Source: a virus. Taken from it: a DNA stretch of 64,000 nt. The stretch covers positions 1 to 64,000 of IMG/VR virus record IMGVR_UViG_3300032047_000003, one strand, 5' to 3'. The position numbers and the translations under genes were made by a program. Of this stretch, positions 2,447-58,900 are shown in pieces (the stretch's first letter is position 1; the number at the start of each line of letters is the position of its first letter). Below the pieces are notes generated by a model. That model saw only the letters and a list, made by a program, of their open reading frames with translations, did no database searches and was not told where the DNA came from.

Positions 2447-3490
2447 ATGGCAATTAAAAAAGTAACTGGAATACCAGAAATAGATGGAATAATTAGCGCT
2501 AGTGCTAAAAAATTTGGAAAAGAATTAGTAAGCATGGGGCCTAAAAAATCACTTTCAGAAGTAAAAGTAATTTCAACCGGTTCCATCTTCTTAGATTGCG
2601 TTTTAGGTTCTGGAGGTTTTCCAGACAACAGAATAATTGAAATCTTTGGACCTCCAAGCGCTGGTAAAACTAGCATCGCTTTACAATTCATGTCAAGATA
2701 CGTAAAAGAAAGAGGGTACGAAAAACCTCCAGTCTTCATCGATCTAGAAAGAACAACAAGCCTTCAATTGGTAGAATCAATGGGAATCGACCCTAACAAA
2801 GTTATTTTCTGTTATCCCGATACCGCTGAAGAAGCATTGGAACTTGCTAAAGATTTAGGAAATACTACTAAAGTTGGCTTTGTAGTATTCGACAGTATTG
2901 ATGCTGCTCAAGCTGAAGCAGACGTTAAACGCGACATGTCTTCTAAAGGAGTAGGTGAACTTGCAAGGCTTCTTTCAAAATCTATGCGAACCTTATCTAA
3001 AGTTGGAGACAACAATGATGTCTGTTTTATTTTTATAAATCAAATCAGAATGAAAATTGGAGTAATGTATGGCAACCCAGAAACTACAAGCGGTGGGAAC
3101 GCTTTGCCCTTTTACTCATCTCTAAGATTGAGAGTAAGCTCTAAGCCTTCTAAAACTCAACCTGGCGCTTTAGATATGAAAATCAAAGTTGTTAAAAACA
3201 AACTTGCTCCAGGCCAAAATGCAACGGCTGAATTTGAATTTGTTTGTGCAAAAGGAATTGAGCCCTACAACGACTTAGTAAGTTATGCTAAAAACCTCGG
3301 CATCTTTAGATTTGCCGGCAGCGCAGTAAAGTTGAAACTTCCAGAACAAGAAGAATACACTATGTGCACCGGAGGCTCAGCAGGATGCATTGGATATCTT
3401 CAAGAAAATCCAGAAATGGAAAATAAAATTAGGAACACCTGTTATCAAATTTCCGGAATAAATCCCCCAGAACAAGAAACACAACAATAA
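2447..3490 (+). CDS. recA: RecA-family recombinase
   Basis: ATP-dependent strand-exchange protein for homologous recombination and probably recombination-dependent replication. It is 347 residues, close to bacterial RecA. Walker A is GPPSAGKTS near residue 68, Walker B-like is [10 protein letters not shown] near residue 145, and loop L2 with the RecA signature is [18 protein letters not shown] near residue 213. An N-terminal alpha/beta segment precedes the core. It is closer to RecA than to T4 UvsX in the L2 and ISTGS motifs. The start has AAGGA about 8 nt upstream. It is followed 8 nt later by the first dnaE fragment, so the two are probably co-transcribed. Confidence 0.93.
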
Positions 3491-3498
3491 GGAAAACA

Positions 3499-4812
3499 AT
3501 GGAAAAAAACGATTTTGTTCATATGCACATGCATACTGAATACTCGCTGCTTGATGGTATTAATCAAGTAGCGAGGTTGCCTCACCATATCGCATCTATG
3601 GGTCAAAAAGCAGTAGCTATTACAGACCATGGGAATGTATCCGGCAGCTACAAGTTCTACAAAGAATGCAAAAGAGCTGGCGTAAAACCCATAATCGGAA
3701 TGGAAGCGTACTATACTGTAGAAGACAGAGCAACTAGAGAAAAAGATGATCTTGGAAACTCTTACTACCATTTAGTCTTGCTTGCAATGAATAATACCGG
3801 TTTGAAAAACTTATACAAACTATCGACGTTTGCATATACTGAAGGAATGTATAGAAAGCCAAGGATAGACGATGCTTTAATTGGAGAATATTCAGAAGGA
3901 ATAATTGCTACTACAGCTTGCCTAGGAAGCAGAATAAGTCAATTGATATTAACAGATAAAATCAAAGAAGCAGAATATGTATTAGATCATCATAGAAATC
4001 TTTTTGACAAAAGGCTTTTGATAGAACTGCAGCTCCACAAAGATCCAGAACAAATTAAAGTAAACAAAGCCCTTCTTGAGTTAGCTGACAAAAAAAACAT
4101 AGAGGTAATTTTAACAAACGATTGCCACTACACGAATGAACATGACAAAATGTTTCATGAAATCGCTCTTTGCATGCAAACTAAAACAACGCTATCCAAC
4201 GAAAAACGATTTACTTTTGGCGACATAGACGTTCACGTTGCCAATCATAACTGGATGGCTGCTAAAGCCGCATGCATGGGAATACCTTATAGAGCTTTAT
4301 CAAATACAGTTGAGTTGGCAAAACTTATCGACAGCAACTCTTATTTTGAAGATAGAAAAAACAGGTATCCTAAATACAAAAATTTCCAATATGCAAAAAA
4401 TAGCTGGGACGAACTTGAGCACATGTGCAAGCGAAAACTTTACAATATGTTTGGAGAAATGCCTCCAGCTGTGTATAGAGAAAGAATTGACTATGAGCTG
4501 TCCATTATAAAGAAAATGGGATTTAGCGACTATATGTTAATCGTCCAAGAGTTCATTGATGGAGCAAGAAGTCTAAACATACCAGTTGGCCCTGGAAGGG
4601 GTTCTGCTGCAGGCAGTCTTGTTTCCTACGCTCTAGGAATAACTAAAGTCGATCCAATAAAATATGGTCTTTTATTTGAAAGATTCCTAAATTACGGAAG
4701 GGGTTCAACTCCAATAATTTTTACAGAACAACAAAAAGCCTACATTAAAGAATCTAGCAATCACACTCACTGCACACACAAACATAAGTGTTCGTGCCCC
4801 GGAGACCACTAA
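3499..4812 (+). CDS. dnaE: DNA polymerase III alpha, fragment 1: PHP domain and first half of palm
   Basis: N-terminal third of a C-family replicative polymerase. Residues 1-270 are the PHP domain. All nine usual metal ligands seem present (H10, H12, D19, H44, E69, H91, C141, D208, H210), so it may be a working proofreading exonuclease; I see no separate DnaQ. Residues 364-382 are the palm motif [19 protein letters not shown], and [13 protein letters not shown] (392-405) leads towards the catalytic loop. At that point homology stops. A tail of about 32 residues follows, ending in a Cys/His-rich stretch ([16 protein letters not shown]). The catalytic aspartates PDIDIDF lie in the next fragment (from 5371). 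The gene ends in a 4-nt tail-to-tail overlap with an antisense gene. No intein motif is visible at its end. Confidence 0.93.
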
Positions 4813-5309
4813 GCAATAAACATGCAACTTATCTTATTAGTGCCACCACTATGAGTAATTTCCAAACTTGTAATTGGCAAATCTCCATAAGAATCATAGC
4901 TATTCCAAGTAGTTCCGGCAGGTTGACTTCCGTCTGCAACTGAAATAGTCAAAGACCCCGGCTTACCACCCCAAACATTTGTGTGTCGGTCTGTTACATT
5001 GTCTGCACCTAAAACAGGTATAGTCAAGCCAGTAGTAGAATCAACTTCTCCGTAACCAAACTCTGGAAGAACGCTAACGTTCCCGTCAATGTCAACTATT
5101 CCAGCTTTAAAAGAAACACTTCTTCTTAAAGCTGAATTCAATACGATGCTTACAGTTTGACTTGCTTCTACTTCAATAATTATTTTAGAAGCGGACTCTC
5201 CTAATAAGCGCAATACGTCAATTTGCGATCCATTTTCAATATCTGTTAACTGAGCAGATAAACCAGCACCTTTAATGCTTGGAACCAATGTGGGACTATA
5301 AGTTGTCAT
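4809..5309 (-). CDS. Virion-like beta-rich protein inside the first dnaE break
   Basis: The 166-residue product is rich in Ser, Thr, Gly, Ile and Val with alternating patterns ([40 protein letters not shown]). It looks like a small beta-sandwich decoration or fibre protein, although I recognise no family. It has a strong AAGGAG 8-10 nt before its ATG, like the virion and small basic genes elsewhere. It lies antisense to the interrupted dnaE locus, converging with fragment 1 and diverging from fragment 2. Placement and strand suggest it arrived as an insertion. The virion role is an inference from composition. Confidence 0.7.
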
Positions 5310-5370
5310 TTAATAAACTCCTTTTTCTTTTATAAAGAAAAATTAATAATTTTTATATAAGGTATTTAAT
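5310..5370. promoter_or_regulatory. Divergent intergenic region between virion-like gene and dnaE fragment 2
   Basis: These 61 bp separate two divergent starts, so they are the only room for a dedicated dnaE fragment 2 promoter and for the antisense gene's promoter. They contain a perfect 9-bp inverted repeat (TTTTTCTTT at 5322-5330, AAAGAAAAA at 5334-5342) and a palindromic TTATATAA (5353-5360) that could act as a -10-like box in either direction. Everything here is A+T only, so promoter calls are tentative. Confidence 0.35.
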
Positions 5371-6987
5371 ATGTTAAACAAAATCAAAAGCTTTTACATA
5401 AGCGAAAGAATAAATAAGGTTGATAAAGATTTTCTTTCATATGAAGAAGACTTTATGACAGAAGACGATGCTTCTATAATAGTATCATTATTAAAGCTCA
5501 ATAGTAAAGCAAAACTTAAAAATACACACAATAGTATTGTTCTTTACTGCACTGGCTTGACAGATGAATTTAATTTTGAAAAAGCAAGATCAAATACAAT
5601 TGATGGCAGTCCTCCAGATATTGATATTGACTTTGATGCACTAAACAGACAGAAAGCTATAGATTGGGTTGTCGAAAAATGGGGTAGAGATAACGTTGCA
5701 AATATTATTACGCACGGAACATTTAAACCTAAAAGCCTAGCAAGAGGTTATTATCGAGTTACTGAAAAAAACTCTCAGCACTTAAATGAAATTCTTCGAG
5801 AAATACCTCAAGCTAAGTTTGGTAAAGAAGCCACTATGGAAGAAATACTTAAAGCTGCCCCTAAACTCAAAACAGAAGAAAAATATTCTGATTTTTTAGA
5901 GTTTTCAGATAGATTAGAAAGCATGGTCTCTACTTTCGGAATTCACGCAGCAGGCGTAGTAATCAGTGATTTCCCTATTCACGATGTAGTTCCCATGTGG
6001 AAAAATTCAAAATCAGAAAGAATTACTCAATTTGATAAAGACGAAACAGAAGAATTGGGTTTGATTAAATTCGACTTTCTTGGCATTGACACCCTTTCAA
6101 TAATTCAAGAATCTATAAACTTGATTAAACAAACAACTGGAGAAGAAATTGACCCCTTTAGTATCTCAGATTACGACAATAAAACATATACTCTTATGCA
6201 ATCTGGACTACTTACTGGTGTTTTCCAAATGGAAACATCTGGAAAAGCCAAGCAACTTATACAAGAAATACATCCTGAAAGCATTTCAGAATTAAGCGAC
6301 ATATCAGCTTTAAATAGACCTGGCCCTATGCAAGCTGGCCTTGATAAAAATTATATCTTAACAAAAAAACAAGGATTCACCTCTCTTGATATGCCAGAGT
6401 CAGTAAAAGAAATCTTAAAAGATACGCAGTACACACTGATTTACCAAGAACAAATTATGGCTCTTTTAAATAAAATGGCCGGATTCTCCCTTAAAGAAGC
6501 CGATGATGCCAGACGTGCAATGGGTAAAAAAAAGAAAGAAGTTTTAGAAAATTACAAAGAAAAATTTATATCCGGATCCCTTAAAAACGGAATTGATGCT
6601 TTTTACTCCAAGTCCCTCTGGGAAGACATTATGGGGTTTGCAGATTATTGCTTGCACGGAGATACAAAAGTTTGGACTCGAGAATTTGGTTACATAAAGA
6701 TAAAAAACATAGTTGACGAAAAGCTAGCTTGTACGGTTGCAAGTTTTAATGGCGAAAATATTATAGAACAAAAAGTGATCCAATACTGGAATAAAGGGAG
6801 CAAAATATGTCACTCTTATGTTATAGAAAATAATAATAATATAAAATGTACTCCAGATCACAAATTCTTAAGAAACACCGGAGAATTGGAAGAGATAGGT
6901 AGAATTTTAACTAAAAATCAACACTTGAAGGAATGCTTTAAAGATGAGTATAATAAATATAGACTTAACGAAAAAATCAATCGGTAA
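5371..6987 (+). CDS. dnaE: DNA polymerase III alpha, fragment 2 (catalytic palm and fingers) fused to N-intein
   Basis: Middle part of the replicase plus half of an intein. Residues 1-79 are an extension that I cannot align to DnaE. From residue 80, SPPDIDIDF carries the two palm aspartates (D83, D85), and KFDFLG gives the third (D235). IHAAGVVIS, TGVFQMETSG, ALNRPGPM and IYQEQIMALL mark the palm and fingers. The extein ends at GFADY (Y426). C427 opens a 112-residue N-intein with block A CLHGDTKVW and block B IKCTPDHKF (T494, H497). The gene alone cannot make a full polymerase: it needs fragment 1 for the PHP domain and trans-splicing to fragment 3 for the rest. An AAGG lies about 10 nt before ATG. 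Confidence 0.93.
   Translation: MLNKIKSFYISERINKVDKDFLSYEEDFMTEDDASIIVSLLKLNSKAKLKNTHNSIVLYCTGLTDEFNFEKARSNTIDGSPPDIDIDFDALNRQKAIDWVVEKWGRDNVANIITHGTFKPKSLARGYYRVTEKNSQHLNEILREIPQAKFGKEATMEEILKAAPKLKTEEKYSDFLEFSDRLESMVSTFGIHAAGVVISDFPIHDVVPMWKNSKSERITQFDKDETEELGLIKFDFLGIDTLSIIQESINLIKQTTGEEIDPFSISDYDNKTYTLMQSGLLTGVFQMETSGKAKQLIQEIHPESISELSDISALNRPGPMQAGLDKNYILTKKQGFTSLDMPESVKEILKDTQYTLIYQEQIMALLNKMAGFSLKEADDARRAMGKKKKEVLENYKEKFISGSLKNGIDAFYSKSLWEDIMGFADYCLHGDTKVWTREFGYIKIKNIVDEKLACTVASFNGENIIEQKVIQYWNKGSKICHSYVIENNNNIKCTPDHKFLRNTGELEEIGRILTKNQHLKECFKDEYNKYRLNEKINR
6649..6984 (+). other. Split intein, N-terminal half (IntN)
   Basis: Codons 427-538 of dnaE fragment 2. Cys1 follows DnaE residues GFADY, the exact insertion site of the cyanobacterial DnaE split intein. 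Block A (CLHGDTKVW) and block B (TPDH) are intact, and length and layout match the roughly 100-residue Npu/Ssp DnaE IntN. It acts in trans with the IntC at 9104. Confidence 0.93.
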
Positions 6988-7237
6988 TCAAAGCGCTATT
7001 TTTTTCAAAAAAGAGGAATTTATTTTAAATCAAAATAATCAAAATCCATTTGTTTTATCAAATAACGCAAAACAAGACTCAGAAACAGTTCATCTGAACG
7101 GACTGTTGTTAAAAGCCAAAAATCCTAATTCCGATTATAGTCTTTCTAATAAAACTTTAAACTTAAATATTGAAACAAATATAGGCGATTTACTTACAAT
7201 CGCTTATGCAACTGCCGACACTAACGGCAGTGAGTAA
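6944..7237 (+). CDS. Small virion-like protein, related to the C-terminus of the next fibre
   Basis: The 97-residue protein overlaps the IntN coding end by 44 nt, with GAAGGA about 11 nt before its ATG. Its C-terminal part has the order VHLNGLLL, then DYSLSN, then GDLLTIAYA. The same order (VTLNGLQL, EEYGVILN, GSDVICIMI) closes the 474-residue fibre encoded next. This NGLxL...DYxL...GDxLxIxY layout is common at the ends of phage fibre and whisker proteins. A fibre cap or accessory role is inferred. The out-of-frame overlap means it was placed right against the intein half. Confidence 0.6.
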   Translation: MSIINIDLTKKSIGNQSAIFFKKEEFILNQNNQNPFVLSNNAKQDSETVHLNGLLLKAKNPNSDYSLSNKTLNLNIETNIGDLLTIAYATADTNGSE

Positions 7238-7269
7238 ATAACAACATAAAATCCTAGGAGGGGTTATAA

Positions 7270-8694
7270 ATGAAAAGAAAATTACAACTTAAGCAAATTG
7301 ACATTACCATTGACAATGGTACTCATATTTCAATTGGCGAAACTGACTTAAAAGACAATTCAAACAATATCATTGGTAGAAAACTTGCAATTGACGACAG
7401 TAGCCTAGTTAGTCAATTAAGTACTTTGCAAAGCAATATCAATGCTGTACAAAGTGATGTCGATGGCAATGAAGCAGATGCTGATAATGCGATTGCAGCA
7501 GTCCAAGCTGACGTTGATCAAAATGAAGCTGATGCTGATACTGCAATTGCTGCAGTACAATCCGATGTTGATGCTAATGAAATAGCTGCCAACAACGCGA
7601 TTGCAGCAGTGCAAGCTGACGTTGACCAAAACGAACTTGATTCTGATGCTGCTGACACTGCTTTAAGCAATCGCCTTACCGTACTTGAAGCTGATCCGAC
7701 TACAAAAACTTATGTAGACGGCCAGATCTCAACAACTCTTGCTTCTGAAATGTCTTACAGAGGCGGAATTGATGCTAGTGCTGCAAATCCTCTTCAGGGC
7801 CTTACTGTAGGTAAAGGTGACATGTGGACTGTAACTACTGCTGGTAGTTCATTTGGAGATGCTCTAGCTGTAGGCGACATGGTTATTGCAGAAGTTGCTA
7901 ACGCTTCTATGAGTGGGCTTTCAGATTTTACTTTAGTTCAAAAGAACTTTGACCTAAGCGCTTATTCTACAACTGTTCAAATGAGTGCAGCAATTGCCGT
8001 TGTCCAATCCGATGTTGATCAAAATGAAGCTGACGCTGACGCAGCAATCGCTGCGCTTCAAGCAGATGTAGATCAAAACGAAGTCGATTCTGATGCTGTG
8101 GACACTGCTATTATAGGCGGTGCAGGGCTTGATGCTAATGGTGGCTATAGCGCTCCAGGTAACCAAGCGGCAAATCCATTTCTTCACAATGCTAGCACTC
8201 TTAAAGATGCTGATACTAAGCTCGAAACTGCAGTAGTAGCCAATGAAACCGAAATCCAAAACCTTGCTCAATCTTTAAGCACGGCATCTGGTTTCGATTA
8301 CTGCGCTTACTACACAATGAATGAAACCGATCTAAATGGTCTTGGCTCTACTCAAAATCCTGAGATTAGATTTCAAAATGCTCCTCTTGCAAATTCCCTT
8401 AAAGGTACTCATACTATCGAGTATGATGATGTTGCTGGAATCCAGCGCGACCAAAGTGGAAATATCGTTAGCCAGCATTCTCAAGAAGTACTATTAGGTA
8501 AAATACTAGTTACTTTGAACGGATTGCAATTGAGAGGTAAAACTGGAAACGTTTTTAATGCAGATCCTGAAGAATACGGTGTCATACTTAACAATAACGC
8601 TACTTCTGGTAAAGATGAGCTTGCCATTGAATTTGCAGAAGGACTACTTGACGGAAGTGACGTAATTTGCATCATGATCTCAAGAGGCATATAA
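7270..8694 (+). CDS. Coiled-coil tail-fibre or whisker-like protein in the intein gap
   Basis: The 474-residue protein has a strong GGAGGGG ribosome site. Residues 56-127 are four 18-residue repeats of the type AIAAVQADVDQNEADADT, and residues 241-276 are two more, consistent with a trimeric coiled-coil shaft. Between them is a fibre module with TYVDGQI, SYRGGIDAS and GKGDMWTVTTAG...VGDMVIAEV, typical of phage fibres. The C-terminal 80 residues form a beta-rich NGLQL/DVICIM cap. It is probably a virion appendage. It is the only clearly late-type gene in the + strand replication block and ends 38 nt before a strong terminator, so it looks like a self-contained cassette. Confidence 0.75.
   Translation: MKRKLQLKQIDITIDNGTHISIGETDLKDNSNNIIGRKLAIDDSSLVSQLSTLQSNINAVQSDVDGNEADADNAIAAVQADVDQNEADADTAIAAVQSDVDANEIAANNAIAAVQADVDQNELDSDAADTALSNRLTVLEADPTTKTYVDGQISTTLASEMSYRGGIDASAANPLQGLTVGKGDMWTVTTAGSSFGDALAVGDMVIAEVANASMSGLSDFTLVQKNFDLSAYSTTVQMSAAIAVVQSDVDQNEADADAAIAALQADVDQNEVDSDAVDTAIIGGAGLDANGGYSAPGNQAANPFLHNASTLKDADTKLETAVVANETEIQNLAQSLSTASGFDYCAYYTMNETDLNGLGSTQNPEIRFQNAPLANSLKGTHTIEYDDVAGIQRDQSGNIVSQHSQEVLLGKILVTLNGLQLRGKTGNVFNADPEEYGVILNNNATSGKDELAIEFAEGLLDGSDVICIMISRGI
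7435..7650 (+). repeat. Four in-frame 54-bp repeats in fibre gene
   Basis: Tandem 54-nt units encoding 18 residues with core AVQxDVDxNExxA. The protein copies are better conserved than the DNA, so they are under coding selection and not simple satellite DNA. Confidence 0.85.
7990..8097 (+). repeat. Two further copies of the 54-bp fibre repeat
   Basis: A second block of the same 18-residue unit (residues 241-276), 340 bp after the first block. The two blocks flank the globular YVDGQI/GDMWTV module, suggesting that the module was inserted into one shaft or that the shaft was duplicated. Confidence 0.85.
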
Positions 8695-8732
8695 TATAAC
8701 ATAATATAATAACGTAAAAACTATTGCGTTAG

Positions 8733-8763
8733 CCCCTCGTTGAAAAGCGAGGGGTTTTTTTTT
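8733..8763 (+). terminator. Strong intrinsic terminator after the fibre gene
   Basis: CCCCTCG pairs with CGAGGGG and extends through T-A and T-G pairs to a GAAA tetraloop, followed by nine T residues. It is the best terminator in the window. It separates dnaE fragments 1-2 and the fibre from dnaE fragment 3 and all downstream replication genes. Confidence 0.93.
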
Positions 8764-8778
8764 ACTTAAGGAGTAAAT

Positions 8779-9120
8779 ATGACATTCTTACAAAAAATAA
8801 ACTTGTACTACATACTGTTTTCTACCTGGCTGAAATTTTTCTTTTTATTAATAAGAAGTGATAAGAAATTTCTATTCCTACCAGAAGGCGGAACCAAAAA
8901 AATAAAGCTAATGGCAAGACCTTACATGTTGGAAGAAAAGAAAGAACGCAAAGGTCTCAAAGATAAAACAAAAACAGTCACGTACATAAACGCACTAAGT
9001 AAAACTTTAACAAGAGATGAAAATCAAAAAGAAAATTTTAAAAAATTATTAGAATATACTTTTTTATGGTATTGTTTTGAGCAACACATGGAGTTCCAAA
9101 AAGATGAAGATCAAAGCTAG
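8779..9120 (+). CDS. 113-residue basic hypothetical protein upstream of IntC
   Basis: Unknown. It has a strong AAGGAG 6 nt before ATG and starts only 16 nt after the terminator. A hydrophobic N-terminal segment (residues 8-27, with several Phe and Leu) could be a membrane anchor or signal-like helix. It is followed by a Lys/Glu-rich helical region and a short aromatic stretch (YTFLWYCFEQH). I see no HNH, GIY-YIG or LAGLIDADG motif, so it is not a recognisable homing endonuclease. Its last 17 nt overlap the IntC start. Confidence 0.6.
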   Translation: MTFLQKINLYYILFSTWLKFFFLLIRSDKKFLFLPEGGTKKIKLMARPYMLEEKKERKGLKDKTKTVTYINALSKTLTRDENQKENFKKLLEYTFLWYCFEQHMEFQKDEDQS

Positions 9121-9208
9121 CGAAAACATTGGTTATCATGATGTTTTCGATATTGGCCTTGCTGGCCCACACAACTTTCTCATAGAAGGTGGAATTTTTG
9201 CTTCTAAC
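9104..9208 (+). other. Split intein, C-terminal half (IntC)
   Basis: Codons 1-35 of dnaE fragment 3. Block F is DVFDIGLAGPHNF, block G ends in Ser-Asn, and the +1 residue is Cys, the standard class 1 splice junction. Length (35) and sequence match the cyanobacterial DnaE IntC, which is normally about 36 residues. Confidence 0.94.
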
Positions 9209-10330
9209 TGTTTCAATAAGTCCCACTCTATAGCATACTCCTACTTGACTTATATAACTGCTTACTTAAAAGCAAACTACCCTTGTCAATTCTTTTGCGC
9301 TTTAATGACAACTAGATCTAAATCTTTACAACCTAAAGATTGGGCTCAAAAAGCACCTCAATATGTCAATGAAGCAAGACAGCTAGGAGTAGAAATAAAT
9401 GCACCTAGCGTTAACGCTTCAAATTTAGAATTTACAATATCTCAAAATGAGATATATTTTGGATTAAACGCAATACGAGATGTAGGTAAAACAGCAGCTA
9501 AAAGTATAATGGCGGCAAGGGGAAATACTCCATTTAAAGACGTTTTCGATTTTGTTTCTAGAGTTAATACTCAAAAAGTAAATATAAAAACATTTGTTTC
9601 CCTTGTTAAAGCTGGCGCTTTTGATAAAATGGGCTATTGCAGAATAGAACTTTTAGAAATTTCACAACAGATATACGACTATTACAAAGATATTCAAGAA
9701 TACGCTCAAAGGATTCTTGATATCCAAGAAAGAAACGATTATAACAATATAGTAATTCCCAAAATAGAACGCAGAAATGAACTGCGAAAAATCTACAAAT
9801 CTGAAACCAATAGAAGACTTAAGGAAAAGCAAAAGCTTTCTGAAGCAGACTACACTAAAGTGCAAGTGGAACTAGAAGAGCTTGAAGCGTTAAACCTTAA
9901 AAAGAAAGTTTCGTTAAAAGAGAAAAACGAACCCGTAAAACCAAATGTAACAAAATATCAAAAAATAAAAATAACTCTTGCTCAAATCATTGAACAAGCT
10001 AACTACATAGGTTGTTATTTACAGACTCATCCTGCACAATTTATACAAACTAAAAATAAAATTCAAAACATGAATATAAATCAATATGGTAAAATAGCTG
10101 CAGTAGTTACATCTTTAAAAGAAATAACTACAAAAAAGAATCAAAAAATGGCTTTTTTAGAATTAGATGACTCTCAAACTATATGCGAAGCAGTTATATT
10201 TCCAAGAAGCTATCAAAAAATAATGAATCTAGATCTTAAACAAGGTGAACTTATCATGGCAGAAGTAAAAGTCCAATCTACCGATCCCTATAAGCTCATT
10301 GTCAATAAGATCAATATATATCAAGGATAA
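9104..10330 (+). CDS. dnaE: C-intein fused to DNA polymerase III alpha, fragment 3
   Basis: The 408-residue product begins with a 35-residue IntC (MKIKASENIGYHDVFDIG, then HNFLIEGGIFASN) and continues at C36 with CFNKSHSIAYSYLTYITAYL, the conserved start of the DnaE C-extein. Next come a helix-hairpin-helix region (FGLNAIRDVGKTAAKSI), a long charged coiled coil (about residues 170-260) and an OB fold (GKIAAVVTSLKEITT...KMAFLELDD, near residue 330). The protein stops after the OB fold, so the tau-binding tail of bacterial DnaE is missing. ATG at 9104 is chosen because GGAG lies 10 nt upstream and it matches the usual IntC start. Trans-splicing with IntN should join Y426 of fragment 2 to C36. 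Confidence 0.94.
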   Translation: MKIKASENIGYHDVFDIGLAGPHNFLIEGGIFASNCFNKSHSIAYSYLTYITAYLKANYPCQFFCALMTTRSKSLQPKDWAQKAPQYVNEARQLGVEINAPSVNASNLEFTISQNEIYFGLNAIRDVGKTAAKSIMAARGNTPFKDVFDFVSRVNTQKVNIKTFVSLVKAGAFDKMGYCRIELLEISQQIYDYYKDIQEYAQRILDIQERNDYNNIVIPKIERRNELRKIYKSETNRRLKEKQKLSEADYTKVQVELEELEALNLKKKVSLKEKNEPVKPNVTKYQKIKITLAQIIEQANYIGCYLQTHPAQFIQTKNKIQNMNINQYGKIAAVVTSLKEITTKKNQKMAFLELDDSQTICEAVIFPRSYQKIMNLDLKQGELIMAEVKVQSTDPYKLIVNKINIYQG

Positions 10331-10336
10331 AAAACA

Positions 10337-11416
10337 ATGTCTAAATGGAACGAAGAAGAAGAGCACTTGCTTAAGACCTTAATAAGTACCAAATCCTATG
10401 AAGAAATTTTTTATGCATTTAAAGAAAGACACTCTAAGTGTTTGCCTGGGTTTAAAAAATTTAGATCTTTAAGAGCTATAACTAAAAAATGCGAAAAACA
10501 ATCTATTACACCTCAAAAATATAAAAAATACGAAGACCCTTACAAAAAGCGTTGGGAGAGAATAAAAGATATAACAAAAGAATATAAAGAAAAATCTGAA
10601 AGTTATTCCGTTGGAGTAAATGTAGATGTTTCTAGAAAAATACTTTGCTTATCAGATATACACTTCCCTTTTTCCTTAGAAGATGAATTAAAAAAAGCAT
10701 TAGAAGAGCATGCAGATTCCGATATTGTTGTTTTGAATGGAGACATTCTTGATGGATATATATACTCTACTTTTGCTAAAGCTAAAAGGATTGCTGCTTT
10801 AAAAGAGTATATGGCTGCTTTCGAACTAGTAGAATATTGTTCTCTTAATTTCCCTAAAGTTGTAATAGTAGCTGGAAATCACGACATAAGACCAGCAAGA
10901 GCATTGGCTTCTGCTGGCTTTGAAAAAGAAGAATCTCAAGTTTTAAGACCAGATCTTTTAGCAAGAATTGCTAATGGAGAAAAATTAAACGAAGAAGGAG
11001 ATTTAATAAAAAAACTTGATTTTTCAAATGTTTTCTATGAAAAATATGACGCTTGGTATGTCAGGATAGGTAAAACAATATTTGCTCATCCCTCTGGTTA
11101 CAGAGGTGGCCCTGGTGGAACCGCTCAAAAGCTTTATGAATATTTTATAAAAAGAATGGGAAGTGATGACTTCGACAGTATAGTCGTAGGCCATACTCAT
11201 AAAATTTACAAAGGTGTTTTTTGTAACAAGCTTTTAATAGAACAGGGCGCCATGTGCGACAGACAGCCTTATCAACATAAACCTAATTTAAGATTCCTTC
11301 ATGCTATGAATGGATATTGCATCGTGTATCAAGACAAAGACGGAAATACAGACTTTAATAAAACAACTCCAATATACTTAGGCAGTATGCTGCCTCCAAA
11401 AAAAGGAATACTATGA
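10337..11416 (+). CDS. Calcineurin-like metallophosphoesterase
   Basis: The 359-residue protein has the full metallophosphoesterase motif set: SDIHF (DxH), NGDILDG (GDxxD), AGNHD (GNHD), an AHPSG histidine and VGHTH near the C-terminus, which together bind two metal ions. Residues 1-90 are a basic extension starting KWNEEEEHLLKTL and resembling a Myb/SANT-type helical DNA-binding unit. Substrate is unknown: phage relatives may act on nucleic acid ends or on nucleotides. It lies directly after dnaE fragment 3 with AAGGA before ATG, so a role in DNA processing is plausible. Confidence 0.85.
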   Translation: MSKWNEEEEHLLKTLISTKSYEEIFYAFKERHSKCLPGFKKFRSLRAITKKCEKQSITPQKYKKYEDPYKKRWERIKDITKEYKEKSESYSVGVNVDVSRKILCLSDIHFPFSLEDELKKALEEHADSDIVVLNGDILDGYIYSTFAKAKRIAALKEYMAAFELVEYCSLNFPKVVIVAGNHDIRPARALASAGFEKEESQVLRPDLLARIANGEKLNEEGDLIKKLDFSNVFYEKYDAWYVRIGKTIFAHPSGYRGGPGGTAQKLYEYFIKRMGSDDFDSIVVGHTHKIYKGVFCNKLLIEQGAMCDRQPYQHKPNLRFLHAMNGYCIVYQDKDGNTDFNKTTPIYLGSMLPPKKGIL

Positions 11417-19503: not shown

Positions 19504-20082
19504 ATGGAAACAATAAAAACAATAGAAGCACCATGGCACTTAGAAGAGCCTCAATATTTTGGCCCAGAAACAAGATCTCTTTTTCTGTCTGCTCCAATAA
19601 ATAGCAAAACTACAAAAAATATCATAAGCCAATTACTAGAATTAAATGCAAGATCTAATAAACCTATTCGACTTTATTTGAATACAACGGGAGGAAGCCT
19701 TCCTGATGCCTTTGCTATATATGATACAATAAAAGCCATAGAATCTCCTGTGCACACTATAGCAAAAGGCCTTTGCGCTTCTGGAGGTTTAATAATACTA
19801 CTGGCTGGTTGCAAAAGATTTTCTTCAAAAAACTCTTTGTTTTTTTACCATCAACCGGTAATGTTTTTAGACCAAGTAAGCTCCATAGAGCAATCTAACG
19901 GACTTTCTGAAGCTTACACTTTATCAAAAGCTCTATTTGATGGTAAGATCATTTCAGAAACTAAAATAGATGCAGATCTTTGGGTTGAAAACTTTAAAAA
20001 CAGAACTTATAAATACTTTAATGCATCCGAAGCAAAAACTTTTGGATTCGTTGACGAAATTATAAAATATAACGAAGGGTAA
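19504..20082 (+). CDS. ClpP-like serine protease (S14), Asp position altered
   Basis: The 192-residue protein has NTTGGSLPDAFAIYDTI (60-76, oxyanion and helix motif), the nucleophile S93 in GLCASGGLI, and H116 in FFYHQP. In E. coli ClpP the catalytic Asp lies six residues before the EA of AxEA; here the aligned residue is Tyr (RTYKYFNASEA). The third triad residue is therefore missing or supplied elsewhere. It may act with host Clp ATPases or mature virion proteins. It stands among replication and recombination genes, so a classical prohead protease role is uncertain. Confidence 0.85.
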   Translation: METIKTIEAPWHLEEPQYFGPETRSLFLSAPINSKTTKNIISQLLELNARSNKPIRLYLNTTGGSLPDAFAIYDTIKAIESPVHTIAKGLCASGGLIILLAGCKRFSSKNSLFFYHQPVMFLDQVSSIEQSNGLSEAYTLSKALFDGKIISETKIDADLWVENFKNRTYKYFNASEAKTFGFVDEIIKYNEG

Positions 20083-23346: not shown

Positions 23347-23902
23347 TGTTTTCCTCTTCTGATTTATTAGCATATTTCACTCCCATTATAGTACCTATAA
23401 TAGAAAAAGAGTTAGTTAGTAATATTCCAAGTAAATTAGACCAAGTGCTTCCTATTAAAGTGGTCTCTTCAGAATTATACCATATTGCAAAGAAATATAA
23501 AACTGTTGTAATAATTCCTGTGCTTGCAATAATATATAAAGCATATCGAACTATTCGATTTATTAACTCGAACTGTCTCTTTCTTTGCATTAGGTCTAAA
23601 TCGTTTAGTGCTTCTTTTTTAGCATTCTCAGCTTCTTCTAAAGCTTCCTTCAACTCAACCATTAAATTTTCATTTTCTTTTGCTTTGCCTAATAAATTGT
23701 CGTTCTGATCTTGAATGACTTTCGTCAATTCAAGTCTTTGCTTTCTCTTTTCTGTGTCTTTTTCTAAGCATTCAGACAAATACTTTTTAAACTTTTCGCT
23801 ACCCTCAAAGACCTTAATGATATTGCCTTCTAGATTTATATTTAATCTTTCTGCAACCTCAATAAATTTAAGCTCTTCTGTTTCTGGTAGTACGATTTTC
23901 AT
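23339..23902 (-). CDS. Coiled-coil two-span membrane protein (holin or signalling-effector candidate)
   Basis: The 187-residue protein has a charged coiled coil (about 38-112) followed by two hydrophobic spans (119-141 and 154-176) and a short acidic tail, so both ends should be cytoplasmic. Its ATG overlaps the response-regulator stop by 4 nt, and it lies in the same operon as the endolysin. Two spans with a cytoplasmic coil fit a class II-type holin with an unusual regulatory arm, or an effector for the receiver protein. No holin signature is recognised, so this rests on topology and neighbours. Confidence 0.55.
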   Translation of the reverse strand: MKIVLPETEELKFIEVAERLNINLEGNIIKVFEGSEKFKKYLSECLEKDTEKRKQRLELTKVIQDQNDNLLGKAKENENLMVELKEALEEAENAKKEALNDLDLMQRKRQFELINRIVRYALYIIASTGIITTVLYFFAIWYNSEETTLIGSTWSNLLGILLTNSFSIIGTIMGVKYANKSEEENNV

Positions 23903-24339
23903 TGTGCATAAACCTTAAATGGCAAAGAACGGCTTTTATATCCAGCTAGATCTCTTTTAAAAGATTCCAATCTTGGTTCAATGTCATGAGATTTTACAAT
24001 CCAAAATTGAGCACCAGCATCTTTAGCTTTTTCCATCTCTATCTCGTCTTTAGAGCTAGAAATAATTCCAATAACAACGCCATTTCCGTATTGATAATTT
24101 ATTCGCCTGACCAGTTCAATCCCATCGAATGAAGATCCAATAATATTAAGATCTACAAAAACGCACTCTGGTTTTCCTGGAGACCCTTCGTAATATTTCT
24201 TAAACATGCTTTCTGCTTCTTCTGCCGTCGTCACGGATTGTAAACTTAAAGAAATATCCAAGATGCTGCAAGCATCTTCGAATACCAAATGGAACAAATT
24301 TTCATCGTCAATAAGCAATATGCTGTTGATTTCACTCAT
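23899..24339 (-). CDS. Stand-alone response regulator receiver (CheY-like)
   Basis: The 146-residue protein consists of one receiver domain. Acidic pair D11, D12 (LLIDDEN), phosphoacceptor D63 (VFVDLNI), switch Ser 94-95 (GIISSS) and K116 (WIVKS) are all present. No DNA-binding or enzymatic output domain follows, only about 20 extra residues. It overlaps the kinase upstream and the membrane protein downstream by 4 nt each (ATGA), so the three are likely made together. Phosphorylation from the kinase at 24336-25106 and a protein-protein output are expected. Confidence 0.9.
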   Translation of the reverse strand: MSEINSILLIDDENLFHLVFEDACSILDISLSLQSVTTAEEAESMFKKYYEGSPGKPECVFVDLNIIGSSFDGIELVRRINYQYGNGVVIGIISSSKDEIEMEKAKDAGAQFWIVKSHDIEPRLESFKRDLAGYKSRSLPFKVYAQ

Positions 24340-25106
24340 TTTATAATTATCCTCATAATAGTACCATCCGTAGTTTTTTTAGCTTCTAACTTATAACCAT
24401 GCTCATTAAATATTGTTTTTGCTATATTTAAACCCAATCCAGACCCTGGTTCCTTTTGGTTATCTTTCCTAGAGTAAGGTTTAGAATATTCTAAAAACTC
24501 TTTTTCCGACAAACCTCTACCGTTGTCCTTAACACATATAGCGTTGTCCTTGCAGTATATCTTTACAAATTTCTTTTTACTATCATTATATTTTAAACCA
24601 TTTCGAATCAAATTATCAATGCCGGTACAAAATAAAGAAACGTTTATTTCAATCTCAAGGTCTAAACAAATTTCTATTTGATCTGAATAAGCAGTTTTTT
24701 CTAAAAAACCATTCAAAACGACGCCTAAGTTTACTTTTTGTTTTGGTAGCTTTTTATCAAATTTTACTAAATCTGTAAAAGCGTAAACCCCTTCATAAAC
24801 TTTCCTTGTATGCTCTAGCCCTTCTTTCAATAATCTCAAAGAAGGTCCTAGCTTATATTTTTTAATTGCTTCAAACGGAATCCTTCTTTCCAAAGAAATT
24901 ATCCCCCTGGGAAGATAAGTATTTATTCCTGAATGCATGTCGTGCCTAATTATTTTAGCTGCATGTTCAAGATATATATTCTTTTGTTGTATCTCTTTGA
25001 ATTTAGAATAATTATCTTTTTTATATTTTCTTATAGTAATAAAAGAAATGACAGACATACCCGTCAAAAGGCCTCCCACTAGTATTAATCCATCTGAAAA
25101 AAGCAT
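24336..25106 (-). CDS. Membrane histidine kinase A (complete catalytic motifs)
   Basis: The 256-residue sensor kinase has one N-terminal transmembrane helix (about 3-25) and no extracytoplasmic sensor domain. H-box IIRHDMHSGINTYLPRG carries the phosphoacceptor His (H55). The ATP-binding domain has N-box DNLIRNGLKYND (N169), G1 VKDNGRGL and G2 GSGLGLNIA, so autophosphorylation is expected. ATG 25106 (TAATG overlap with the upstream kinase gene, behind GGAGAGG) is chosen over a TTG 12 nt earlier. Its partner is probably the receiver encoded next. Confidence 0.9.
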   Translation of the reverse strand: MLFSDGLILVGGLLTGMSVISFITIRKYKKDNYSKFKEIQQKNIYLEHAAKIIRHDMHSGINTYLPRGIISLERRIPFEAIKKYKLGPSLRLLKEGLEHTRKVYEGVYAFTDLVKFDKKLPKQKVNLGVVLNGFLEKTAYSDQIEICLDLEIEINVSLFCTGIDNLIRNGLKYNDSKKKFVKIYCKDNAICVKDNGRGLSEKEFLEYSKPYSRKDNQKEPGSGLGLNIAKTIFNEHGYKLEAKKTTDGTIMRIIIK

Positions 25107-26134
25107 TATCCTCTCCAATCTCTATTATCTATTATGTATTCTTTGTTTTTCATAATATTTATCCTAAAAACAGTTCCCTCATCCAGCTTCTCAGGCTCAA
25201 CGCTAAAACCATGCTCTTCTATAATTGCTACAGCAATATTTAACTCAAGACCTTGATAGTCTTCGTTTTCATCAAAATAAGGTTTGCAATATTTAATAAA
25301 ATCTTTTTTAGACAAACCGGTACCGTTGTCTTTTACGCATAAAGTGCTATCATCTTCCATGTAAATAAAAACTCTTTTAACTTCCGAGCAGTTATTTGTA
25401 ATTCCACCTTTTATTAAATTATCCAAAGCAGTAATGAATAGGACCTTGTGTACTTTCATTTTTGGCAATTTAGAAATTTTAACATTATCAGAATATGCAG
25501 AAAGCCTAATATGCTCCATCAAAAGAGCTCCTACGTCACACTCTTCTTTTTCAATACTGCCATCTCTAACTAAAGCGGTAAAAGCGTGAACTCCTTTGTA
25601 AACTTTTTGAGTGTACTCAAGCCCTTCCTTAAGCAAATGTATTTCACTCTCAAGTCCATGTTTGGACACTAAATCTTTTGGAAGCTTTTTTAATAAACCT
25701 TTGAGCCCTCTTGGAAGATATGTATTTATACCGCTGTGCATGTCATGTCTTATTACTTTAGCAGTATGGTCTAAGTATATCTTTCTCTGCAAAAGTTGCT
25801 CTTTGTTCCTAATCTTTTCTGATGCGCTATATATTATGCCATGGCGCTTTGCAAGCCAAGCGTCGTACTTTGGCCTATCACCCGGCATAAACTCCCCGAC
25901 TCTATAATGAGTTGGAAGCTTGACCTCGTTTTCTTGAATAAAGACACTAGTAACCGCAATGCACACAAGTCTTATTCGATCATATTTATTTATAATCACC
26001 CCTTCTATTTGCTTCGAATCTTTTTCTGCAAATAAAAATCTAGGAGCTTGATCGTACTGTTCGAACGAAACCGGATCATAAAAGTCTATAATATCCCATC
26101 TTAAAGAAAACCATTCTCCAGCTTTTGCTTCCAT
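25106..26134 (-). CDS. Histidine kinase B, paralogue with degenerate ATP site
   Basis: A 342-residue soluble protein, clearly a paralogue of kinase A: the H-box VIRHDMHSGINTYLPRG (H130) is nearly identical. In the ATP domain the catalytic N-box Asn is replaced (DNLIKGGITNN has Gly where A has RNG), and the G2 loop GSGLG is replaced by YQGLE. G1 VKDNGTGL remains. It has an extra N-terminal domain of about 100 residues and no membrane helix. It is likely a pseudokinase that forms heterodimers with A, or is phosphorylated by A. It starts 7 nt after the endolysin stop. Confidence 0.85.
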   Translation of the reverse strand: MEAKAGEWFSLRWDIIDFYDPVSFEQYDQAPRFLFAEKDSKQIEGVIINKYDRIRLVCIAVTSVFIQENEVKLPTHYRVGEFMPGDRPKYDAWLAKRHGIIYSASEKIRNKEQLLQRKIYLDHTAKVIRHDMHSGINTYLPRGLKGLLKKLPKDLVSKHGLESEIHLLKEGLEYTQKVYKGVHAFTALVRDGSIEKEECDVGALLMEHIRLSAYSDNVKISKLPKMKVHKVLFITALDNLIKGGITNNCSEVKRVFIYMEDDSTLCVKDNGTGLSKKDFIKYCKPYFDENEDYQGLELNIAVAIIEEHGFSVEPEKLDEGTVFRINIMKNKEYIIDNRDWRG

Positions 26135-28013: not shown

Positions 28014-28685
28014 TTATAATTTTTCGACCATAGCTTTGATTCTTCTATAAAGTGGCGTTTTCCTAATATTTAAAACTATTTCTCTTTTCTTTTCAAAATT
28101 TTTGTTTATGTGTGACACCCATTTTGGATCGTATCCTAATGTTTTTAGTTTTCTCCAAAGGAGCTTATCGTCAAACAATAAATTTTCATATGATATTAAC
28201 TCTTTATTCTCAATCTTTTCCAATAGTTCTTTTTGTATTTTAATTACTGCTTTACATAAATTTTCTAAAGTTTGATTTTTTTCCTTTTTTGAATCTATCC
28301 CCAGTATATTTATTGGCCAAAACCATTCTCTTAAATAAAGAGTGTATATTGTATCTTCTAGATCTCTTCTTATAACAAGCACTTTGTAATCTTCGTTTTC
28401 GTTCAAGAATCTAACTGTATGTAAGGGCTGAGCTACACTCTTGATAAGGTAACCTTTAGAATACTTTTCTAAAACAGATTTAGTATTTTGATATTGATAG
28501 TAATTGTGTCTGCCGTGTTTCTTTTCTATATTGGGAAATTCTAACTGAATATGATTTAAAACATCTCCATCGTGCCAAATTTTTGGATCTAAAATTTTCA
28601 ATTCGTCTTCAAGCATATGCGAGGCATGCTTATATATTAAGCTACTCATACTTCTTGGCAATCCTACAATAATTAAAGATTTCAT
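28014..28685 (-). CDS. Sulfotransferase-like protein
   Basis: The 223-residue protein starts with LIIVGLPRSMSSLIYK, a PAPS 5'-phosphosulfate loop (GxPRSxxxxL), and carries VLVIRRDLEDTIYT, matching the 3'-phosphate motif (RxP/RD...S/T). It should transfer sulfate from PAPS to a sugar or other hydroxyl. ATG at 28685 overlaps the methyltransferase stop (ATGA). It is the last gene of a GT9, methyltransferase, sulfotransferase set behind the tail fibre. Confidence 0.78.
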   Translation of the reverse strand: MKSLIIVGLPRSMSSLIYKHASHMLEDELKILDPKIWHDGDVLNHIQLEFPNIEKKHGRHNYYQYQNTKSVLEKYSKGYLIKSVAQPLHTVRFLNENEDYKVLVIRRDLEDTIYTLYLREWFWPINILGIDSKKEKNQTLENLCKAVIKIQKELLEKIENKELISYENLLFDDKLLWRKLKTLGYDPKWVSHINKNFEKKREIVLNIRKTPLYRRIKAMVEKL

Positions 28686-29254
28686 TTTTTCACTCTTTGG
28701 AGCCAAGCGCAATTAGCTACATGGTCTCCAAACATAATATATTTTTTCCGGTCCATTTCTTCATCTACAACCCTTTCGATTCCTGGACATCTTTCAAATT
28801 TGTAATCGTGGTATCCTATTACCCCACCTACAGATATTCTGTTTTCTAAAAATCCATAAGTATAAGATGTAGGTTTATACAAATCCATGTCTAAAAATCC
28901 AAAACAAAACTTTTTATTTTTTAAATTTTTCATTAAGGTTTCTTCTACTAAGCCAGCAATAGGAATAATATAATTTTCGACACCAGCTTTTTTTACATTT
29001 TTCCAAAAAGTTTCAAAAGAAGCCGTACACTCGCCTTTCTTTAGCATTGAATCAATTCCTTCAATACCGTTATAAGGCAGTCCATTGTACGTGTCGCACG
29101 CATATATCTTCTTATTTGAATTAAACTTTTTTAAAACTTTAGCTAAAGCTATAGTTGTTTGCCCCTCGAATACTCCACATTCGATTACATCTCCTTGAGC
29201 CGCCAAACAAAGCTTCAACGCCTCAGCTGCTTTTTCAGATCTTTTACAACTCAC
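28682..29254 (-). CDS. TylF-like SAM-dependent methyltransferase, GTG start
   Basis: The 190-residue class I methyltransferase has DVIECGVFEGQTTIALA (SAM loop), YACDTYNGLP (acidic ribose-binding motif), and FGFLDMDLYKPTSYT with GGVIGYHDY (metal and substrate acids), as in the TylF/macrocin O-methyltransferase family that methylates sugar hydroxyls. The start is GTG 29254, overlapping the GT9 stop (GTGA) with GGAG upstream. Acting after a glycosyltransferase, a sugar substrate is likely. Confidence 0.85.
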   Translation of the reverse strand: MSCKRSEKAAEALKLCLAAQGDVIECGVFEGQTTIALAKVLKKFNSNKKIYACDTYNGLPYNGIEGIDSMLKKGECTASFETFWKNVKKAGVENYIIPIAGLVEETLMKNLKNKKFCFGFLDMDLYKPTSYTYGFLENRISVGGVIGYHDYKFERCPGIERVVDEEMDRKKYIMFGDHVANCAWLQRVKK

Positions 29255-30201
29255 AACATCTCCTTAATTTTGTTTAAAACTTTTTCGGGCTTTAAATCTT
29301 TCATACATTTTATATTTATTGGACAGGCTTTATACCAACATCCTAAACAATCTAATTCTTCTAATCTAATTGACTTATGCGTAGAATAATGATTTATTCT
29401 ACTTGAAGGAGGTATGGACCCAAATACAACTAAAGATTTAGTTTTTACCGCAGCAGCTAGATGCATTAAACCTGAATCAGGTCCAAAAAACAAATCGCAC
29501 CTTTTAATATAGGAAGCTGTTTGTCTAATGTCTAATCGAGAAATATCGATAACTCTCTCATTGTATTTTTGATTCTTTAAAACTCTATTAAAATCTGAAA
29601 CAAAAATCACACTACTCGGATACTCTTTCTTTAAAAGATTAATTAGTTTTTTAGTATTCCGCCAATCATAACTTCTTTTCCCTTCATTAGAAGCAGAGTG
29701 TATAAAAAACTTTAATTTATTTTCGTAATCCTTAAAAAATGCATCCGCTGCATCACTTTCTTTTTTAGTTTCTAAATAAAAAGGAATCCAATTTTTTATT
29801 TCACGAACTTTACATGCTTTTGCAAAGATATCAATCCTATTGCATTCTGGCCTCCCAGAATGTTCATGTTCAATACATACACTCTTTATATTGAAGTATT
29901 TTTTATATTTCTCTCTAACTACATATCTTGAATCTTCAAACTTATCTATAAAAGGAGCATTAAATAGCAACTTGTAATAAGTATCATCGTAAGTCGTATG
30001 CCTATCTAAAGAAACAGTGAGTTTTGTATTTGGATATTGTTTTTTAAACTCTCTTATAGCTACACTAGCCATAAGAACATCTCCTATACCACCAACTGGT
30101 CTATCAATGCAAATCTCTCCAGAACTAAAACCCCCAGACCTCCTATTAGAAACTCTTTCAGGTTTTTTTATGACTCTGTATTTCTTATTCAAGTATTTCA
30201 T
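29251..30201 (-). CDS. GT9 family glycosyltransferase (ADP-heptose:LPS heptosyltransferase-like)
   Basis: The 316-residue GT-B enzyme. N-terminal PVGGIGDVLMASVAIREFKK, central HSASNEGKRSYDWR (nucleotide-sugar contact), FFGPDSGLMHLAAA (the GT9 signature) and a Cys-rich end (CLGCWYKACPINIKCM) are all typical of heptosyltransferases. Its ATG overlaps the tail-fibre stop (ATGA). It could heptosylate host LPS to block superinfection or decorate the fibre. The donor is uncertain, but an HldE-like kinase is encoded at 13107. Confidence 0.88.
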   Translation of the reverse strand: MKYLNKKYRVIKKPERVSNRRSGGFSSGEICIDRPVGGIGDVLMASVAIREFKKQYPNTKLTVSLDRHTTYDDTYYKLLFNAPFIDKFEDSRYVVREKYKKYFNIKSVCIEHEHSGRPECNRIDIFAKACKVREIKNWIPFYLETKKESDAADAFFKDYENKLKFFIHSASNEGKRSYDWRNTKKLINLLKKEYPSSVIFVSDFNRVLKNQKYNERVIDISRLDIRQTASYIKRCDLFFGPDSGLMHLAAAVKTKSLVVFGSIPPSSRINHYSTHKSIRLEELDCLGCWYKACPINIKCMKDLKPEKVLNKIKEML

Positions 30202-55915: not shown

Positions 55916-58900
55916 TTAATTACCTTTTATATATTGCAACAACTGTCCCGAATCTTTTAGATATTTCAATCCAGGATCGTTTGCTCTTTCTGGGTTTCTG
56001 GAAACTATATGTTTATAAAACTCAGTACCCATTGCTTCGTTTTCGTCAATCGTATCAAAAACGCCTCTAAATGCATCATCTATTCCTGACACAATATCTC
56101 CTAAAATATTTTGCCATACTGAAGTTGGAGACCTAGTACTTACCCCCGCAAATAAAGGCTTCCCTTCTTTTACAATGGGAACAATAGTAACTGCTTCACT
56201 TTCCAACAATTTAGAAAAAATTATTGGAGCTGCAATAAGGTAACTGGAGCTAAACCTATCTAAAACTTGACTCGAGTTGTAATAATACTGATTGTCAACA
56301 CCTGCCATATACACTCCTCCTGAACCCCCAACCCCAGCTGCTTTTAAAAGCCCACCCGCATTAAGTTTCCACTTCCCCAGAAGCAGCAAAGATAAACCCG
56401 CACCTGTAAGGCCTATAGCCTTAGTCGCGAATTGACCAGCTGTACCTGTCGTAGGATTCAATGCATCGGCTGCAAAAAAAGCAGAAACTCCAAGGTCAAA
56501 TAAACTTTCAACTGTAGAAACAGCTTGATCTTGAAAATCGCTAAAATCTGAATTCAAAGAAGGGTTCTGGTTTCCTAAATCCTTAAAAAGCTTTTCGAGA
56601 TTAACAGTTGCTTTAACATTATTTTCCGTATTAGTTGTCTCTCCAAAAATATTTTTATCTATATCGACAACTTCTTTATACTCAATAATTCCATTTCGCA
56701 CTAAATCGCTATAGCGTTCTATCATCGAACTAGAAGCTTCATAAGACAAATTAAAACCATCTATATTCAAAGATACGTCTGGTGATTCTGGAATTATTCC
56801 TAATCTTTGCCCAAGAGTACCATACCCTATCTCTCCCAATTCTCGCGAAGTACTTTCATTCATTCTTTTTATTGCAGTGTCTAACTCTTCTTTATCCTTA
56901 CTGGTTGTAAGAATTGCTGGCAGGTTTTTATCTCCACCATATTGCTCATTTACTGAGCTCGCATCTGAACTAGAGCCTCTGTCTATAACACTTCTTTCCC
57001 TTGCTATGGCTCCTCCTACATATACTTTTAAAGCTTCTAGTACTGGCCAACTTGAAGATTCATTTCCAACAACAATCGCGTTCGGAACTATTTCCGTTAT
57101 ATATCCTGTTTCAAAAGAAAATATATGGGTTACTGATTTTACTTCAACTGGCCCGGACATTTTACTTTGATCGTCAAATAAAAAACAAACATCCCATGGT
57201 TTTACAGAAGGGTCTCCTAATATGGATATCTCTCCAGAATACATTTCTTTAACTCCATATATTAAACTTCCAATACCGTATCTTGTAGCCATGGCTCTAT
57301 CTCTTATATCGTATTTGTCTACGTTTTGACTAATTAAATTGCTGTCAGGTATATTGGAACTTGCTTTCATAAAGACACTTTTTTTATTGTTCGCATCATG
57401 CATATCTTTGTAATATACGTTCACGGAATTAACTGCATTCCTTTGAGAAACTGTGAAGTTGTTTCTAATCAAATTTTCCCTAGATCTAATTAGGTGATAA
57501 TTTCTAAACGGAACAAAACGATTTTCTAACCCTGTTAAATACTCTTTTAAAAGTCTTCCTCTTAGTTCAATTGTATTTCTGTTTAATTCTAGATCGTCCT
57601 TACTAATCGTCTGACCCTCAACATACCTTTCATCGACATTATTTTCGTCAGCAAGAAAATTTTCGATTTTAGAACCAAAAGTAGAAAACCTGTGATCCGC
57701 TCTATTATTTATAAACTCAATTAGTTTTTTTCTATCATTAATGTCAGAAAACGTTTCGTCTGCACGAATATCCGTTTCTATCGATCTTGCTTTATCTTTA
57801 AGCTTCAGGCGAGCTTCCCCTTTAGCAGCCATTCGCTCAAACTTTCTTTTTAGCTCTCTTTGACTCATCCCAGAATAACGTTTTGGTTTCTTCAACATCT
57901 CCTCCATCAAAAATAGTAAATTACTTCCGGTCTCATCCCAGGAATTGGTTTCATAATAATTCTGTCTATCCTTAAGGTCTGCTTCAGTCACTATTGCGTC
58001 TGGATTGTAAACTCCAATTGCTATATTCCAAGTATCTGTAAATTTCCTTTTTGACATAGCGGCATGATACTCGGCTCTGTTGTACGTAGTTTTTACTTGA
58101 TTTGCAACAGCAAGTAAATTTCTTGCTTTTCCCTTGAATTTAGACATAAGATTTTTTCGAGCTTTTTTCTTAAATTCCTCGTATTCTGCATCAGATATCT
58201 TTTTGGTTTTGTAATCTTCGTTGTACCCTTGCTTGAAAAATCGTTTCAAATCATCTTCATCATCAACATTTGCTGTTAGCAGCTCTCTTACTGAATTCAT
58301 TCTTTGAATAAAACCAGGAGTGGCCGGCTTGCTCCAGTATCTTTGAGATGGGATTCCAAAAAACATAGTATACCTAAACTCCTTTCCATAAGGAACTGCG
58401 CTGTAAATCCAACCAGGATGCCTTAGCGTCATTTCGTGAAAAACATCCCATATAGTGCTATTCTGAAGTTTATACCTACAAGCGTCAGGATGAACTCTTT
58501 TTAAATACAAAAGTGGGTTTACGTTTTGCCAGTCCTTTAAAAACTCCATTGCGCTTTTACCTTCAGCTCCAGAAAAATCCGAAAAAGCCATTTGGAACAA
58601 CATTCCTACTTTTTCGCTAACAGTCTTTTCTATATGCGTAAGATTGTGCATGTAGTAAATTGGACTAGGAGGATACAAGTTGTCATCTGAAGGATTTAAT
58701 TTAAAATAAACCAGTTCTTTGGTAAACCAATTTTGATAAAGCCTTCGATATTCTTTATGAGTATCTGTAAAACTCTTTCCAAAAATACCCCCTCCAATAT
58801 AATCTACTGCAAAAAAGAAAAGAGAAGTTTTAAAAAATATTGCCGTAGAGTTAAAAGTTGCACTTAGAGCAGTTGTTCCTAAAAATAACGGCGTACTTCC

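Follow-up and report, generated by a model that had tools for sequence, protein, structure and literature searches.

A DnaE replicase encoded by three genes in uncultured phages, divided once inside the palm and once at a split intein

The replicase locus and its relatives

In the window, i.e. the first 64 kb of a 111,567-bp IMG/VR virus record, DnaE is covered by three genes, termed F1, F2 and F3, that lie between positions 3499 and 10330 and were delineated from the list of open reading frames (ORFs) and Pfam matches. F1 (3499-4812, + strand, 437 aa) encodes an N-terminal subunit with the PHP domain (E 2.5e-46) and the first half of the palm, corresponding to positions 2-104 of profile PF07733 (Pol III alpha NTPase domain), an assignment based on Pfam, the alignment of the clade described below and sequence motifs. 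F2 (5371-6987, +, 538 aa) continues with the catalytic part of the palm (motifs PDIDIDFD and LIKFDFLG; PF07733 positions 99-260), the finger domain and the N-terminal part of an intein (IntN), as found by Pfam, PDB and fold searches, and begins with a conserved N-terminal extension of about 80 aa ahead of SPPDIDIDFD (5371-5610, +), which we call the F2 head. F3 (9104-10330, +) combines the C-terminal intein part (IntC) with the C-terminal part of DnaE, i.e. HhH (HHH_6, E 3.9e-27) and OB fold (PF01336, E 1e-6), in agreement with the clade alignment. Its start is most likely the ATG at 9104 rather than the TTG at 9077, which results in an IntC of 35 aa, in line with relatives starting with MKI. 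PHP, palm, finger, HhH and OB domains are all present in DnaE order across the three genes, confirming the first-pass annotation, which had assigned PHP and a palm half to the first gene, catalytic palm, fingers and IntN to the second, and IntC, HhH and OB fold to the third.

The whole locus is clustered within 7 kb, with F1 and F2 being 0.56 kb apart, and primase-helicase and recA genes are part of the same cluster. A recA-like gene (2447-3490, +; PF00154, E 2.2e-65) constitutes the upstream flank and a gene for a calcineurin-like metallophosphoesterase (10337-11416, +; PF00149, E 1.2e-12) the downstream flank. Gap 1, between F1 and F2, holds a gene for a small, predicted all-beta protein on the opposite strand (4809-5309, -, 166 aa), the end of which overlaps the end of F1; it belongs to a fast-evolving family, of which most relatives have a member in their gap 1, and fold searches with the protein gave no significant match. 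Gap 2, between F2 and F3, contains three ORFs (6944-9120), i.e. one of 97 aa that overlaps the end of F2 (6944-7237, +), one of 474 aa (7270-8694, +) and one of 113 aa (8779-9120, +). The 474-aa protein contains repeated DVDxNExDADxAIAA motifs and may be fibre-like; it matches phrog_30158 (E 9.5e-18), a PHROG of unknown function. A strong terminator-like hairpin (8731-8756; 8731-8765 with its T-run, +) is located between this gene and F3. Because of the opposing gene in gap 1 and the terminator in gap 2, F1, F2 and F3 are probably transcribed separately.

Other parts of the window contain a ClpP-like protease gene (19504-20082, +), neighbouring genes that encode a response-regulator domain and two ATPase domains of histidine-kinase type (23899-26134, -), which are unusual for a phage, and, in the structural region, genes for a TylF-like methyltransferase and a family 9 glycosyltransferase (28014-30201, -) as well as a very large ORF of at least 2658 aa (55916-63892, -).

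The first-pass annotation had suggested searching for the same gene order in other viral records, and it recurs. Scans with F2, F1 and the F2 head yielded relatives that are all uncultured contigs, and F1 and F2 are separate genes in 14 distinct virus records including the window (near-identical contigs counted once; two further records carry one half only), with F1 identities of 52-67%. L003, found in the F2 scan, has the whole layout, with F1 and F2 being 59-65% identical to those of the window, a homologue of the opposite-strand gene in gap 1 and virion-like genes in gap 2. The flanks are conserved, too: where flank sequence exists, recA is located upstream of F1 in most relatives and the metallophosphoesterase gene directly follows F3. 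In L092 the recA homology is itself interrupted by about 1.4 kb (L092:5017-7402), possibly by an intron or an intein or because the gene is split. In every record of the split clade PF07733 is divided at profile positions ~102-104 / ~94-104, and in none is it intact. As the window is part of a metagenomic contig, an artefact of assembly, sequencing or annotation was considered; the same break occurs, however, in 13 further distinct records that differ in what their gaps contain, and because the broken layout recurs in independent contigs we regard assembly or sequencing error as excluded and the probability of any such artefact as negligible.

Apart from the distant virus L033, the split genes form one clade in both the F1 and the F2 tree (SH-aLRT 99-100). 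Grouping of L033 with this clade was not rejected by the AU test (p 0.52), the backbone of the trees being weak. F2 head and IntN had no match in 50,697 annotated phage records, and one scan of genome contigs gave no cellular relatives of the F2 head. For F1, the matches listed from annotated phages reach 42% identity across the greater part of the protein, and two records at 60-80% were also counted.

The contents of the gaps differ between members of the clade. Tail-fibre PHROGs are matched by gap genes of L014 and L016, a collagen-repeat protein is encoded in a gap of L095, and a C5 DNA methylase in a gap of L016. Gap 1 of L095 contains a gene of 858 aa (L095:7332-9908) that its close relative L096 does not have there, indicating gene turnover in the gap. 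We speculate that the replicase locus may serve as docking site for fibre genes.

The split intein between F2 and F3

In the window, IntN (6649-6984, +, 112 aa; PF14890) matches Npu/Ssp-type DnaE inteins with a best E of 8.1e-13 and IntC (9104-9208, +, 35 aa, ending in GIFASN ahead of CFNKSHS) matches DnaE inteins with a best E of 3e-5, both in phmmer searches. Break 2 coincides with the classical cyanobacterial DnaE insertion site and split position, before CFNKSHS, and all residues for splicing are present, i.e. Cys1 in CLHGD, the TxxH of block B as TPDH, block F as DVFDIGL..HNF, and the terminal Asn of ASN followed by Cys+1. A split intein lies between F2 and F3 in the window, L003, L007, L009, L092, L095 and L096, whereas in the intein-less L006, L010 and L090 both are part of a single gene of 802-808 aa. 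The predicted spliced product has 799 aa in the window and 799-809 aa across members, and its length matches that of the intein-less single genes, suggesting that F2 and F3 are joined by protein trans-splicing. Among the gap genes of the window no homing endonuclease was matched. Other members have group I introns (RF00028) within F2, i.e. in L012 and L015 between RRAMG and KKK and in L013 and L014 after SPPD, and LAGLIDADG endonuclease genes accompany the F2-F3 introns in L013 and L015.

The break inside the palm and the proposed heterodimer

In unsplit phage DnaEs the catalytic PDxDxD motif follows six residues after FERFLN. F1 of the clade continues through the equivalent proline and ends 17-39 residues past FERFLN, often with a Cys/His-rich end, and F2 begins about 80 residues before PDIDIDFD, both the F1 tail and the F2 head being conserved across much of the clade. 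SD-like sites are found ahead of F1 and F2 in most members (for F2, in members with a confident start). pN is 0.11-0.21 for the cores, 0.24-0.25 for the F2 head and 0.18-0.24 for the F1 tail; synonymous sites are saturated, which precludes a dN/dS ratio. These pN values along with saturated synonymous sites indicate that head and tail are selected proteins.

Were break 1 closed as well, through a split intein that escaped recognition or an intron spliced in trans, a normal single-chain DnaE would result, and both the split intein at break 2 and the heavy invasion of dnaE in the relatives by group I introns (L012-L015), two of them at the SPPD site beside break 1, lend this idea some appeal. 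Nevertheless, we consider it very unlikely. F1 ends at a separate stop codon after a conserved tail, F2 has a start of its own, an SD-like site and a conserved head under purifying selection, and a gene on the opposite strand is located between them. No intein motifs were found by eye at the end of F1 or the start of F2, the head lacks a terminal Asn ahead of the junction and resembles palm sequence rather than an intein (see below), and no Rfam intron was detected between positions 2000 and 12000 of the window, even at E 1. The first-pass annotation is thus borne out in having one break mediated by an intein and the other not. Its two breaks are both real, but they are not equivalent: break 1 is located inside the palm and is common to the whole clade, whereas the intein of break 2 is present in only a part of it.

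The palm motifs of the two chains are complementary. The GPGRGS core is present in F1 of every clade member (L090 has SGGS after it instead of AAGS), and the catalytic PDxDxD and KxD (KFD) motifs of F2 are kept wherever the exon is complete, i.e. the GS motif and the catalytic Asp triad are distributed over F1 and F2. As neither chain has a whole palm, a complex of F1 and F2 is the simplest reading, and from these sequences we regard it as quite probable that the phages possess a heterodimeric replicase composed of F1 and trans-spliced F2-F3, with one palm rebuilt from two chains. The F2 and F3 precursors would be joined through the cyanobacterial-type split DnaE intein, yielding a catalytic subunit of about 799 aa, whereas F1 would never be joined and would remain a separate, permanently non-covalent subunit. 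F1 would contribute PHP together with that half of the palm which binds the nucleotide (GPGRGS) and dock with F2-F3, which would bring the catalytic Asp triad, so that the assembled heterodimer would be active as polymerase. F2 head and F1 tail probably make break 1 tolerable and may form the interface between the chains. When F2 is modelled by itself with AF2 (mean pLDDT 70, pTM 0.44), the result resembles structures of Pol III alpha in a fold search. Confidence is lowest at the palm strands, as would fit a missing partner, but the low confidence may also result from the alignment of only 13 rows.

F1 might, however, act as a free PHP nuclease or be a remnant, and F2-F3 might be inactive or repurposed, with the phage using the replicase of its host. 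No beta clamp gene was found in 7 records, so that the phages probably take some replication factors from their hosts, and the records are uncultured contigs that may be incomplete. On the other hand, GPGRGS in F1 and the catalytic Asp residues in F2 are kept despite large divergence, purifying selection is strong, and primase-helicase and recA genes are located in the same cluster, rendering this reading improbable. Nor is there a recognised substitute: contrary to the concern, raised by the first-pass annotation, that an intact dnaE elsewhere might make the pieces redundant, none is present in the 111,567-bp record or in the clade records, and neither PolA nor PolB (PF00136) was found in 18 records searched with Pfam. 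As these contigs may be incomplete, another polymerase may lie outside the assembled part or be too divergent for Pfam. The heterodimer thus remains our preferred reading.

Concerning origin, the palm segment that F1 keeps intact is probably present a second time, in degenerate form, as the F2 head. The F2 profile of the clade aligns to E. coli alpha from within the head onward, at residue 368. The clade heads alone give a weak match to the normal palm segment (E 0.0045, with 1 of 200 column shuffles scoring equally well), and combined with L033 they match it with E 5e-4 (an equal score again being reached by 1 of 200 shuffles). The distant virus L033 is broken at the same place, but its F1 and F2 are overlapping ORFs (L033:9992-13589), for which an assembly frameshift is possible. 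Here F1 covers positions 2-105 of PF07733 and F2 positions 68-260, so that the head itself is recognised; this head matches the normal palm segment with E 9e-8 and the clade heads with E 2.8e-7. Because the clade heads match the normal palm weakly, the duplication reading rests largely on L033.

Certain unsplit phage DnaEs (L054, L060, L061, L064, L068, L069, L074, L083, L084 and L086) contain an insert of about 115 aa between FERFLN and PDVDTD. The break might accordingly have arisen by fission inside an inserted domain (FERFLN to PDxD) and not by duplication of a palm segment, a scenario that bears on nothing but the origin and does not conflict with the two-chain mechanism. That a separate unsplit group (L054, L060, L069, L083 and others) has its insert exactly here speaks for it. 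The insert resembles, however, the preceding palm segment, although its match to the normal palm is weak (E 3e-4), the match between clade head and insert is marginal (E 0.04), and in trees with a weak backbone the L054 group does not appear as sister of the split clade; we therefore view fission in an insert as possible but rather doubtful. These one-chain inserts, which are similar to the F2 head, may be a parallel or an intermediate. The trees, given their weak backbone, do not support the L054-group DnaEs as sister group and hence as direct ancestors.

Taken together, we give about even chances to the full scenario of a lineage of uncultured phages with an obligate heterodimeric C-family polymerase, in which the palm active site would be formed by two independently translated chains, enabled by a duplicated palm segment, the second chain being divided by a split intein, and in which the gaps would be exchange sites for tail-fibre-like genes between conserved replicase flanks. 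The locus exhibits a naturally evolved, conserved division of the palm in a replicative C-family polymerase that does not involve an intein, with F1 tail and F2 head as candidate interface elements and L033 and the insert-bearing unsplit DnaEs as possible intermediates, and thus allows the division of a catalytic domain to be put to test. Moreover, it provides a new family of phage split DnaE inteins, for which the intein-less sister genes are natural references for the spliced product, and an unexplained genome architecture with fibre-like genes repeatedly lodged inside a replicase locus.

Comparison with known systems

No description of this arrangement was found in the open-licence literature, in line with the first-pass annotation, which knew of none. 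A palm-split Pol III alpha as such, by contrast, is already known in phages: in group 2.2 jumbo phages a minimal Pol III alpha is split, without an intein, into an NTP-binding and a Mg-binding protein, the genes of which are distantly located and occur alongside a family B polymerase (PMC7824862). Both systems share a C-family core that is split without an intein (PF07733 2-104 / 99-260 here). Our locus differs in that PHP, HHH_6 and OB domains are present, whereas the jumbo phage proteins are devoid of other Pol III domains, in that its genes are clustered, F1 and F2 being only 0.56 kb apart, instead of distant, and in that no PolB or PolA was found in 18 records.

Phage polymerase genes broken by a split intein are also known, e.g. 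the split-intein PolB of phage MIJ3 (PMC6892783), and fractured genes with split inteins and homing endonucleases have been described (Dassa et al. 2009, as cited in PMC6892783). These systems, too, have genes in the gap, but gap 2 of the window contains fibre-like and other genes and no recognised homing endonuclease, and the replicase has an additional break without an intein.

The intein itself closely resembles the cyanobacterial split DnaE inteins (Ssp/Npu) in insertion site, split position, the 35-aa IntC, Cys1, TxxH, the terminal SN and Cys+1. In contrast to these, it is phage-borne, its F2 precursor does not contain the N-terminal third of DnaE, fibre-like genes are located between its halves, and its IntN is unmatched in 50,697 phage records. 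The dnaE gene of Trichodesmium contains several inteins (Liu and Yang 2003, cited by title in PMC5874633). It reportedly also combines several interruptions with a split intein at this very site, but there all interruptions are inteins, whereas break 1 is not. Genes interrupted by group I introns differ from our locus in that no such intron is present at the break of the window, introns being found in L012-L015. Finally, family B polymerases may be split without an intein, as in PolB of Methanothermobacter and gp43A/B of T4-like phages, which likewise build a replicative polymerase from two chains, although polymerase family and position of the break are different.
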